From Synergistaceae bacterium (lineage in GTDB: Bacteria > Synergistota > Synergistia > Synergistales > Synergistaceae): a stretch of 34,437 nt of DNA. The translations under genes were made by a program, and so were the position numbers. This document shows positions 18,883 through 22,005 of the stretch, one piece after another. The notes under the pieces were generated by a model that saw nothing but the letters and a program-made list of their open reading frames with translations, was not told the origin of the DNA and ran no database searches. The DNA lies in assembly GCA_031289955.1 (NCBI GenBank), contig JAITOL010000132.1:1-34437 (forward strand), written 5' to 3'. Positions within the stretch are counted from its first letter, which is position 1; every line of letters begins with the position of its first letter.

Positions 18883-20043
18883 ATGCCCCTCTACAAAATA
18901 GCCGCTTACGATCCAAAGGGCAATCACAAAAACCTCAGGAGGGAGGCCGCTAACGAGGACGAGCTTCTCAAAGGCCTGAGCCTCGACGGTTACATCCCCA
19001 TTTCCATCAAAGCTGAAAGTGAAAATGTACATGACGCCCGCCGCGTCAAAAAACTCAGCGCCGACAATCAGCATATGTTTTGCACTATGTTGTCGGCCTT
19101 CCTGGAGAGCGGATTATCCCTCACGGAGGTGCTCGGCATACTCCAAAAACAAACCCGCGACAAACAGCTCCTGTTTGTCTACAGCTCTCTTCGCGAGTCG
19201 GTCGAATCGGGAAGATCGCTCGCTTCCAGCATGAAAACGCAGGGGGTTTTCAGGGACTCGATAATAGGAATGGTGGAGGCGGGGGAGAGATCGTCAACGC
19301 TTCCGGCAGTATTGGACAGCGCCGCGGCGTTTCTCCAAAGCGAAATAACGCTCAAAAGAAGGATACAATCAGCCCTCACATATCCGATTCTCATGCTGAT
19401 CGTCGGGACGTTCGTCGTGGCGTTCCTCGTGACTTACGTCGTGCCTCAGATGACGGATATCGTGGTAAAGGCGGGACGCGAGCTTCCTTTGGCGACAAGG
19501 GCGCTGCTCGGCATATCGTCCCTCGTCAGGATAGGAGCGATACCGACTGTGCTGCTGTGCGCAGCCGCGTATATTTACATGAAACGGCGCGGTAAAAAAA
19601 TATCGTTTCCGTTCTTTAAGGGGACGCGAAATCTGCTGACCGTGTCGATCGTCTTCTCACAGCTTGCCACCCTGATAAAATCCGGCGTTCCTCTCGTGCA
19701 GGCCATAGAGATGTCGGAAAGCATGGATCCGAAAAAAGGCAGGATGAAATTTCTTGCCGGAGAGGTCAAAAAAGGCTACAGGTTTTCCCAAAGCCTGGAA
19801 CGGGAGGGCTCTTTCACCGAAGACGTAATAGCGATAGTGCGTATAGGGGAGGTCGGAGGAAATCTCCCCACCTGTCTCGAACGAATATCCGCCAACGCAT
19901 GGAATTTCGTCCAAAACATGATGCAGAAATGGTCGAGCCTGGCGGAACCCATAATAATCATCATCCTCGGAGTCGTGGTTGGCTTCGTCGTCCTCGCGGT
20001 ATTGCTCCCGATATTCAACCTTTCCGACATAGCCCAACTCTAG
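18883..20043 (+). CDS. gspF: Type II secretion inner-membrane protein GspF
   Basis: A polytopic platform protein of 386 residues with two T2SSF domains (about 65-185 and 265-385) and three membrane helices (about 165-190, 215-235, 353-378). The first domain has FCTMLSAFLESGLSLTEVL and GRSLASSM, and the second has FSQLATLIKSGVPLVQAIEMSE and RIGEVGGNLPTCLERI, which are typical repeats. The ATG abuts the gspE stop. This is the last gene of the secretion run; I see no intrinsic terminator after it. Confidence 0.94.
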   Translation: MPLYKIAAYDPKGNHKNLRREAANEDELLKGLSLDGYIPISIKAESENVHDARRVKKLSADNQHMFCTMLSAFLESGLSLTEVLGILQKQTRDKQLLFVYSSLRESVESGRSLASSMKTQGVFRDSIIGMVEAGERSSTLPAVLDSAAAFLQSEITLKRRIQSALTYPILMLIVGTFVVAFLVTYVVPQMTDIVVKAGRELPLATRALLGISSLVRIGAIPTVLLCAAAYIYMKRRGKKISFPFFKGTRNLLTVSIVFSQLATLIKSGVPLVQAIEMSESMDPKKGRMKFLAGEVKKGYRFSQSLEREGSFTEDVIAIVRIGEVGGNLPTCLERISANAWNFVQNMMQKWSSLAEPIIIIILGVVVGFVVLAVLLPIFNLSDIAQL

Positions 20044-20077: not shown

Positions 20078-20120
20078 TGTTGTAAATACAACAGACCTGC
20101 CGGCGGCGGCAATATATTAT
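20078..20120 (+). promoter_or_regulatory. Predicted activator-dependent hcp promoter
   Basis: A perfect dyad TGTTGT-AAAT-ACAACA lies at 20078-20093, with its centre at 20085.5. A -10-like TATTAT lies at 20115-20120, with no recognisable -35 hexamer at the correct spacing. If transcription starts about 7 bases after the -10, near 20127, the dyad centre falls at about -41.5, the standard position for a class II CRP/FNR-family activator. Regulators of this family (HcpR, DNR, FNR) control hcp in many anaerobes. The specific regulator is not identified. Confidence 0.55.
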
Positions 20121-20202
20121 GATGCCGTGAATCGGGAGGCGCAAAGAGCGAGTTGTATGACACAGGTTCGGATCAACGATACCTAAGAGGGAGTGGGACG
20201 CA

Positions 20203-21777
20203 ATGAGTAATATGTTTTGTTTCCAATGCGAAGGGACCGCGGGCGGAAAGGGTTGCGCGGGGCGTCAGGGTGTTTGCGGCAAGAAAGACCGCACGGCAAT
20301 TTTGCAGGATGAATTGACCGGAGAGCTCGTGACCCTGGCTCGCGCCGCTTTGAAAAATGAGCCGACCGGGCGCTCGGATATCCTTATCATGGAAGGGCTC
20401 TTTATGACAGTCACGAATGTCAATTTTAGCGACGCGGATATAGAGCGGAAAATCAGCGAAGTACGGCTGGAAACCCGCGCGATGGATCCAAATTCGAGCG
20501 ATTCCTCCGGATTTGACATGACGAAACTCTGGGAAGCGGATGAGGACATCAGGTCGCTGAAGTCCCTGGTTTTATTTGGAATACGTGGGATAGCCGCCTA
20601 CGCCTATCACGCCTTCGTACTCGGCAGAAGCGACGAAGAGATCGCCGCGTTCTTCCGCAAAGCCCTTGCGGTTGTGGGAAACGACGGCTATGGTATGGAA
20701 GAACTCCTGCCCATCGTCATGGAAACGGGCAAAATAAATTTCAAATGTATGGAGCTGCTTGACGGGGCTAACACTGAAACTTACGGAACCCCGAACCCAA
20801 CGACGGTATCGCTCACAGTTGAAAAAGGCCCATTTATCGTCGTCAGCGGACATGATTTACACGACCTGAAGCTGCTGCTCGAACAAACGAAGGGAAGCGG
20901 GGTGAACGTCTATACTCACGGCGAAATGCTGCCCTCTCACGGTTATCCCGAGCTGAAAAAATATCCGAGGCTCAAGGGGAATTTTGGAACCGCATGGCAG
21001 AATCAGCAAAAAGAATTCGACGGGATCCCCGCGCCGGTGCTCTTCACCACAAATTGCCTGATGCCGGTGCGGGAGAGTTACAGCGATCGGGTATTCACAA
21101 CGGCGATGGCGGGATATCCGGGGCTCGTTCACATCGGGGACGACAAAGATTTCAAGCCCGTGATCGATAAGGCGCTCGAACTCGGCGGATATGCGGAGGA
21201 TCGACGCATGACCGGCACCAACGGAGGAAGTGAAGTCGTGACCGGCTTTGGTCGCGCAGCGGTGCTCTCGCGCGCGGAAACTGTTATAAACGCCGTTAAA
21301 AGCGGCGCTATAAGCCATTTTTTCCTCGTCGGCGGGTGTGACGGAGCTGAGGCGGGACGCAATTACTTCACGGAATTTGTGAGGCGGACTCCGGGCGACT
21401 CGATAATACTGACGCTCGCTTGCGGAAAATATCGCTTCAACGATATGAATCTTGGGGAAATAGGCGGGCTGCCTCGCGTCATGGACATGGGGCAATGCAA
21501 CGACGCGTACTCCGCGATCAAAGTGGCGCTCGCCCTGGCGGAGGCTTTCGGCTGCGGAGTGAACGACCTGCCGCTCTCCATGGTGTTGTCGTGGTATGAA
21601 CAGAAGGCAGTCAGCATCCTCCTGACTCTGCTTTGCCTGGGCGTCAAAAACATACTGCTCGGCCCCAGTCTGCCGGCGTTCGTGTCGCCAAACGTTCTGA
21701 ATTATCTCATCAATAATTTCAATATAGCTCCTATCAGCGCTCCTGAACAGGATTTAAAGACGATTCTGGGGAAATGA
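20203..21777 (+). CDS. hcp: Hybrid cluster protein (hydroxylamine / NO reductase)
   Basis: A cytoplasmic Fe-S protein of 524 residues linked to nitrosative stress; family members reduce NO or hydroxylamine. The N-terminal cluster motif is C6-x2-C9-x8-C18-x6-C25, close to the class I spacing expected for a [4Fe-4S] cluster in anaerobes. All hybrid-cluster ligands can be placed: His217 (SGHDLHD), Glu241 (THGEML), Cys285 (TTNCLMP), Cys379 (VGGCDGAE), Cys407 (LACGKYRF), Cys432 (MGQCNDAY), Glu466 with Lys468 (WYEQKA). GGGAGTGGG upstream of the ATG serves as the ribosome binding site. The gene is flanked by its own predicted promoter and a strong terminator, so it is monocistronic. No hcr reductase is adjacent. 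Confidence 0.96.
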   Translation: MSNMFCFQCEGTAGGKGCAGRQGVCGKKDRTAILQDELTGELVTLARAALKNEPTGRSDILIMEGLFMTVTNVNFSDADIERKISEVRLETRAMDPNSSDSSGFDMTKLWEADEDIRSLKSLVLFGIRGIAAYAYHAFVLGRSDEEIAAFFRKALAVVGNDGYGMEELLPIVMETGKINFKCMELLDGANTETYGTPNPTTVSLTVEKGPFIVVSGHDLHDLKLLLEQTKGSGVNVYTHGEMLPSHGYPELKKYPRLKGNFGTAWQNQQKEFDGIPAPVLFTTNCLMPVRESYSDRVFTTAMAGYPGLVHIGDDKDFKPVIDKALELGGYAEDRRMTGTNGGSEVVTGFGRAAVLSRAETVINAVKSGAISHFFLVGGCDGAEAGRNYFTEFVRRTPGDSIILTLACGKYRFNDMNLGEIGGLPRVMDMGQCNDAYSAIKVALALAEAFGCGVNDLPLSMVLSWYEQKAVSILLTLLCLGVKNILLGPSLPAFVSPNVLNYLINNFNIAPISAPEQDLKTILGK

Positions 21778-21792
21778 ACGACGGATAAAACG

Positions 21793-21839
21793 AAAAAAGC
21801 GTCGACGCCTTGAAGCAATGGCGTTGACGCTTTTTTTTT
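21793..21839 (+). terminator. Strong rho-independent terminator after hcp
   Basis: GCGTCGACGCC pairs with GGCGTTGACGC (11 bp with one G-T wobble), extended by A/T pairs at the base. The loop TTGAAGCAAT can close by three more pairs. A run of nine T follows. It isolates hcp from the PadR operon. Confidence 0.93.
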
Positions 21840-21875
21840 GCGCTCCGAAGGTTATTGAATCAGCGGTTCCTAAAC

Positions 21876-21903
21876 TTGACGAACTGATATATTGCTTTAT
21901 AAT
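21876..21903 (+). promoter_or_regulatory. Strong sigma-70 promoter of the padR operon
   Basis: TTGACG at 21876-21881 and a perfect TATAAT at 21898-21903 are separated by 16 bp. Transcription should start near 21910 and drive padR, the VIT-domain gene and the exosortase gene, which are linked by ATGA overlaps. Confidence 0.8.
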
Positions 21904-21963: not shown

Positions 21964-22005
21964 ATGAAAATATCGAACGGGAGCCGATTTTTGCGTCATG
22001 GGTGA
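21964..22005 (+). CDS. Possible 13-codon leader peptide overlapping the padR start
   Basis: ATG at 21964 has a GGAG Shine-Dalgarno nine bases upstream, better placed than the one for padR. It encodes MKISNGSRFLRHG and stops with TGA at 22003-22005, overlapping the padR ATG (21998) by eight bases. This arrangement would allow translational coupling of padR to the leader. It is too short to be supported by anything but position and ribosome binding site. Confidence 0.3.
   Translation: MKISNGSRFLRHG

Follow-up and report, generated by a model that had tools for sequence, protein, structure and literature searches.

A candidate HcpR operator and class II promoter ahead of hcp in a Synergistaceae genome

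Introduction

Class II promoters that depend on activators of the CRP/FNR family carry a dyad centred at -41.5, a weak -35 element and a good -10 hexamer. One such family of regulators, HcpR, was described in 2005 by Rodionov et al. (PMC1274295) as coevolving with its operator: arginine 180 of the recognition helix was tied to G3 of the operator and residue 181 to base 6. In the HcpR/HcpR2 regulon (PMC1274295; for C. difficile hcpR, PMC12915319), a CRP/FNR-family regulator has hcp and frdX as its targets and a palindromic operator, and hcpR adjoins frdX. Nitric oxide (NO) induces hcp ~206-fold and frdX ~220-fold in C. difficile (qPCR), there is no induction in an hcpR mutant, and knock-down of hcp or frdX leads to NO sensitivity (PMC12915319). 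HcpR of P. gingivalis (9DAY, PMC12750200) is an activator of hcp with a CRP fold, in which Met68 serves as a heme ligand. HcpR1-type regulators (TTGACnnnnGTCAA; TGTGA-N6-TCACA in Desulfovibrio) do the same job at hcp promoters according to the literature, with a different helix and a different operator.

The locus described here is found in the window, i.e. the whole stretch of 34,437 nucleotides that was analysed, from a Synergistaceae genome. It shares with the HcpR/HcpR2 regulon a CRP/FNR-family regulator, hcp and frdX as putative targets, a palindromic operator, the combination of R180 with G3, a Ser181 like that of C. thermocellum and C. difficile, and an hcpR gene next to frdX. Unlike that regulon, in which GTAAC is the common HcpR2 half-site, it has the half-site TGTTGT, and its hcp is unlinked from hcpR and has its own copy of the promoter. 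In the parts of the literature on HcpR, Synergistetes and hybrid cluster protein that were accessible, a TGTTGT operator was not found outside the 2005 paper.

Results and discussion

The hcp promoter

The features of the locus, all on the forward strand of the window, are as follows.

18883 to 20043, forward: upstream neighbour, a T2SSF-family protein gene, which stops 34 bp 5' of the operator and lies outside the switch
20078 to 20093, forward: perfect inverted repeat TGTTGT-AAAT-ACAACA (TGTTGTAAATACAACA), centred at -41.5, the proposed HcpR dimer site, with its columns conserved in related sites
20092 to 20097, forward: degenerate -35 element CAGACC, 17 bp before the -10 hexamer and overlapping the downstream half-site
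20115 to 20120, forward: -10 hexamer TATTAT, 21 bp past the dyad, the spacing at which related sites have TANNNT
20127, forward: predicted transcription start (G, after C), from the geometry and from the purine/pyrimidine preference of related sites
20127 to 20202, forward: leader of 76 nt, with an unremarkable RNA fold (z -0.05)
20203 to 21777, forward: hcp, hybrid cluster protein / hydroxylamine reductase, 524 residues (NF003658, 733 bits; TIGR01703, 680 bits; PF03063)
21785 to 21845, forward: terminator-like hairpin with a T-run, 3' of hcp (z -5.35)

The dyad, the 21 bases after it (20094–20114) and the TATTAT that follows had been pointed out in an earlier note on this DNA, and both the letters and the coordinates proved exact. 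When TATTAT is set as -12 to -7, +1 falls on the G at 20127, with a C at 20126 (-1), and the centre of the dyad (20085.5) falls at -41.5. The class II activator geometry that the note had read into this arrangement is borne out: a site centred near -41.5 takes the place of a good -35 element upstream of a predicted start site, and the 21-bp spacing is kept in nearly all related sites (see below). With up to two mismatches allowed, the dyad has three matches in the window against 0.33 expected.

The same note saw no -35 box here, which is nearly right. A promoter scan, at its threshold, finds no sigma-70 promoter in the hcp operator region. The hexamer at a 17-bp spacing, CAGACC, agrees with TTGACA at three of six positions, and the G and the A directly past the dyad, at positions that fit a -35 TTGACA with this spacing, occur in 33/47 and 39/47 related sites, respectively. 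As these two bases are common in the relatives, a degenerate -35 element appears to overlap the downstream half-site, and the -35 element of the hcp promoter is likely to be degenerate, not absent. The promoter has neither the A at -19 nor the TA at -15 and -14 that are present in most frdX-type promoters, and its spacer is G+C-rich.

An inverted repeat in this position could also act as RNA, as a terminator or attenuator hairpin that ends the upstream type II secretion operon (the T2SSF-family gene is clustered with genes for a secretin, T2SSE and proteins with an N-methylation motif). The dyad lies 34 bp past the upstream stop codon and folds somewhat better than shuffled sequences (z -2.11), and terminator-like G+C stems are found on both strands just past it (20097–20112; five sites in the region against 2.3 expected, sd 1.5). 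Its own stem is AU-rich, however, there is no T-run after it, and it recurs before frdX and hcp in other contexts at a nearly constant distance from a -10 hexamer. The absence of the T-run and the recurrence at other loci make us disfavour a terminator or attenuator, which we regard as extremely unlikely.

Downstream, the hairpin and T-run after hcp suggest that hcp is probably transcribed alone, as its own transcription unit. A near-consensus sigma-70 promoter (TTGACG-16-TATAAT, 11/12) is found further on at 21876–21903 of the window, ahead of a PadR-family regulator gene at 21998.

A second copy at the hcpR locus

The source genome (2.65 Mb, 95.6% complete) contains a single perfect copy of the dyad, which is the hcp operator, and two copies with one mismatch, at C194:18231 and C53:1527. 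At up to two mismatches there are 39 matches per strand compared to 69 for the reversed control, i.e. no enrichment, so that only exact or near-exact sites carry meaning. The site at C194:18231–18246 (CGTTGTAAAAACAACA) separates a CRP/FNR-family gene from a ferredoxin gene that is divergent to it, and TATTAT follows after exactly 21 bp. The site at C53:1527 lacks a TANNNT at 21 bp in both directions, for which reason it is taken as background, and is missing from the list of composite matches with up to three mismatches. This composite pattern joins the operator to the GA, a spacer and the -10 hexamer (YGTTGT-N4-ACAACAGA-N19-TANNNT) and has two exact matches in the genome, at hcp and at hcpR-frdX, the two genes upstream of which an operator of an HcpR regulon is found. 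The next best matches, seven more, have three mismatches, which gives nine at up to three compared to six for the reversed control. The search for the 16-bp motif that the earlier note had proposed thus leads to a second copy, with the same spacing, at the genome's own hcpR-frdX locus.

The dyad is most probably the operator of the HcpR-type CRP/FNR-family activator encoded at C194, through which hcp would be activated in class II fashion. We put the probability of this reading at about 0.87, on account of the sequence, the geometry, the second site, the conservation of the site, its co-occurrence with the regulator and the type of recognition helix. In the proposed mechanism, in which binding and activation as well as the NO signal and the start site are predicted, an HcpR dimer would bind TGTTGT-N4-ACAACA at -41.5 under nitrosative stress, make up for the poor -35 element and recruit sigma-70-type RNA polymerase to the TATTAT -10 hexamer. 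Transcription from about 20127 would then lead to Hcp, a nitric-oxide reductase. HcpR would also drive frdX, whose promoter is built in the same way and runs divergently from hcpR.

The regulator

The hcpR-like gene occupies C194:17555–18217 on the minus strand, on a different contig from hcp, and is divergent from frdX. Its product belongs to the CRP/FNR family, with both PF00027 (cNMP-binding) and PF13545 (Crp helix-turn-helix) over their cut-offs; of four HTH_Crp_2 matches in the genome, it is the only one above the Pfam cut-off. The neighbouring gene encodes a 4Fe-4S ferredoxin protein and is called frdX because of its place beside hcpR and the literature. The structural model of the regulator (pLDDT 92.2) has a fold that matches the CRP family. 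The fold search does not discriminate for HcpR, however: GlxR ranks first and 9DAY 16th and 50th. Among NCBIfam models, none names the regulator, even the best ones scoring far under the cut-off. When 177,635 PDB sequences are searched with a profile built from 20 relatives, the top rank goes to Listeria Lmo0753, the second to P. gingivalis HcpR (9DAY, 63.6 bits) and the fifth to DNR (3dkw, 58.7 bits).

The recognition helix, DRSAMSSE, provides R180 and S181 (E. coli CRP numbering). It is consistent with the operator: R180/S181 is paired with the G3 present in the window site (numbered as in the 2005 paper), and at base 6, S181 is accompanied by G6, not A6. Rodionov et al. (PMC1274295) report that in C. 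thermocellum and C. difficile Ser181 occurs together with motifs that deviate. Coevolution of HcpR with its operator being known since that paper, the window site appears to be a further operator of a Ser181-kind HcpR, and a well-supported one.

The alternative is that the dyad is bound by some other regulator, of FNR, CRP or DNR type or a repressor of another family, and that its resemblance to the hcpR locus is a coincidence. In favour of this, DNR is among the PDB matches of the profile, not far behind HcpR in score, and matches to the dyad with two mismatches occur at the background rate. The half-sites of FNR, CRP and DNR differ from TGTTGT, however, and the one CRP/FNR gene over cut-off in the genome has the matching operator and spacing in its own promoter region; we therefore consider another regulator very unlikely. 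The earlier note had left a choice between an HcpR-like and a DNR-like regulator. The DNR-like one is not favoured, because the DNR/FNR operator TTGATnnnnATCAA does not match (the aligned core is GTTGTnnnnACAAC). Its statement that the half-site is not that of FNR and its HcpR-like option agree with the presence of this operator beside hcpR and frdX in the same genome and with the way in which the operator tracks the regulator.

In its sensor part, the regulator has no N-terminal cysteine cluster of the FNR type: its first 80 residues contain C11 and C28 only. The P. gingivalis HcpR, which is the second-best PDB sequence match and with which it shares the CRP fold and the role of hcp activator (predicted here), differs from it in that the heme ligand Met68 (PMC12750200) aligns with Gln64, which does not fit a heme site of the Bacteroidota type. 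A Met at this position is found in none of the 45 relatives that could be read by pattern (of 55; 10 were unreadable) and in none of 30 clostridial proteins. The replacement of Met68 by Gln64 suggests that the sensing chemistry may differ from that of the P. gingivalis protein.

In 24/55 HcpR proteins and in 20/30 clostridial ones, the long dimer helix begins with a CxxxCxFH motif, which may be a metal or redox site. There seems to be covariation between residue 185 and base 6 in the half-site: C6 or G11 is seen in 7/11 cases when the residue is Lys or Arg and in 3/48 when it is another one (Fisher p 9e-5, uncorrected for relatedness, over 59 hcpR-operator pairs preselected by a good core with TANNNT at 21 bp, with 27 of the 30 clostridial loci taken).

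Conservation of the operator and its spacing

Among 185 genomes of the phylum, 46 have an HcpR relative (E <=1e-20) and 105 have hcp (E <=1e-60). The upstream regions of 55 hcpR genes, 51 from the phylum and four from other groups, were examined over 300 bp, a length that misses the exact site of one genome (G125) at ~0.5 kb. A site with up to two mismatches is present in 28/55 of these regions, compared to 18/2,200 simulated ones, and several hcpR loci (e.g. in G120, G119 and G027) have no recognisable site within the 300 bp scanned. The gene opposite hcpR is frdX in 20/34 listed loci; elsewhere that place is taken by hcp or a flavodiiron-like gene, or no gene can be recognised there. The clostridial family is that of an uncultured Acetivibrio genome (L022), with 200 genomes of which 108 have an HcpR relative. 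Thirty of its loci were fetched, 29 of them with enough upstream sequence, and the site is found at up to one mismatch in 19/29, compared to 1/1,450 simulated regions.

The hcpR-side sites with up to two mismatches make up a pool of 49, 47 of them distinct, in which the hcp site of the window is not included. TANNNT is found exactly 21 bp past the dyad in 45/47 distinct sites. The next best spacing, 18 bp (30/47), is a secondary one due to the overlapping consensus TAGTATACT. The two exceptions are L102, with TATAAT at 20 bp, and L278. As in the window, a pyrimidine is found at -1 (44/47) and a purine at +1 (41/47). The simulated-region counts and the 45/47 are uncorrected for relatedness and come from sites that span the phylum, Megasphaera and the clostridial family. 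The hcp promoter thus resembles the known class II CRP/FNR-dependent promoters in its dyad at -41.5, weak -35 and good -10 elements, and differs from them in its half-site and in a spacing that is held across distant groups. Such a nearly fixed architecture yields start-site predictions for dozens of promoters.

At hcpR loci such as that of C194:18231–18246, the operator is often 11–45 bp ahead of the start of the hcpR match (25/28 of the loci with up to two mismatches). Its closeness to hcpR suggests that HcpR may also limit its own synthesis, and could be taken to mean that the site is mainly a repressor site here, from which HcpR departs on NO. A centre at -41.5 combined with a poor -35 element is the position of an activator, however, and HcpR of both C. 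difficile and P. gingivalis activates hcp (PMC12915319, PMC12750200). A role as mainly a repressor site is accordingly very unlikely, and activation by HcpR is preferred.

Operator and regulator across the phylum

The comparison of hcp upstream regions comprised 110 hcp genes from 99 genomes, 6/105 hcp genomes (G004, G042, G043, G080, G111 and G133) being excluded because the start of the match was missing. A site with up to three mismatches and TANNNT at 21 bp stands directly before hcp in 7/24 cases in genomes with RQ-type HcpR, in 1/5 in those with the other (KT) helix type and in 0/81 in genomes without this HcpR. A further 14 of the 24 hcp genes belong to units headed by such a promoter. 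Ten of these are downstream of the hcpR-divergent promoter (sites with 0–4 mismatches), with frdX in between in eight, and in the other four (G143–G146) the contig carries such a promoter ~2.9 kb upstream of hcp. The remaining three of the 24 lack such a site (the gene in G067 and one of two in each of G064 and G090). Exact composite sites number 15 in the 185 genomes, in 14 genomes that all have HcpR; 14 sites belong to the hcpR-frdX region, and the only other one is that of the window's hcp. Most of the phylum's composites with two mismatches are probably background, because many occur where HcpR is missing and matches to the reversed control, too, are seen in many genomes.

The operator tracks the regulator, not hcp. 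The comparison of hcp promoters across the phylum had been suggested in the earlier note, with loss of the dyad there as a point against it, and the outcome is twofold: hcp promoters in general do not conserve the dyad, and it is absent from all 81 that were examined in genomes without the regulator. It is misleading to treat these promoters as one orthologous set, because most hcp genomes of the phylum are without this regulator.

According to the 2005 paper, HcpR2 members always co-occur with hcp (PMC1274295). In contrast, hcp is missing at E <=1e-60 from 17 of the phylum's 46 genomes with this HcpR (10/29 among those at least 90% complete), and several of them (e.g. G003, G008, G125, G127 and G131) keep the operator at frdX. 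This suggests a role of FrdX that is independent of hcp, which genomes with hcpR and frdX and without hcp make directly testable.

Other HcpR types and units were observed in the phylum. In the PETLSR-helix type (G031 and G040), the regulator gene is divergent from hcp, ~0.85 kb away, and CCTTGACnnnnGTCAAGA, which is FNR-like and corresponds to the HcpR1 motif in Rodionov et al. (PMC1274295), is found 36–39 bp before it. One unit (L222, G144:C11:66000-72500), the one looked at among the four of G143–G146, encodes a cupin, a DUF2249 protein, a flavodiiron protein, a ferredoxin and Hcp and has its own HcpR-type promoter with one composite mismatch. In G067 (L091/L197), a variant of the operator is flanked by an HcpR paralogue on one side and on the other by a flavodiiron-like gene, a 75-residue piece assigned by resemblance, with no Pfam match.

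Other bacterial groups

The operator was also found outside the phylum. Two Megasphaera genomes have it at frdX-hcpR. The recurrence in Megasphaera and in the clostridial family makes the pairing of operator and helix a property of the type of regulator (with the R180/S181 helix) and not of a lineage, so the "lineage-specific" regulator of the earlier note does not hold.

It is tempting to generalise that in several groups of anaerobes HcpR of the R180/S181 type governs an NO regulon through a nearly rigid promoter (TGTTGT-N4-ACAACA, 21 bp, TANNNT), by means of a sensor without the known heme ligand, that it controls frdX in many genomes without hcp, and that FrdX is itself an NO-defence protein. 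We offer this tentatively, as a picture that is possible and for now somewhat doubtful. At the level of the single locus, an inverted repeat is matched with a regulator that has a name, and the resulting pair offers a means of finding genes for NO defence in anaerobes that have not been cultured. Two further Megasphaera promoters are of this kind: in M. paucivorans (L234) the exact dyad precedes a Pfam-confirmed flavodiiron gene, with no TANNNT at 21 bp, and in one Megasphaera genome a cupin-hcp unit is preceded by a variant of the dyad that has one mismatch and is followed by TATAAT at 21 bp.
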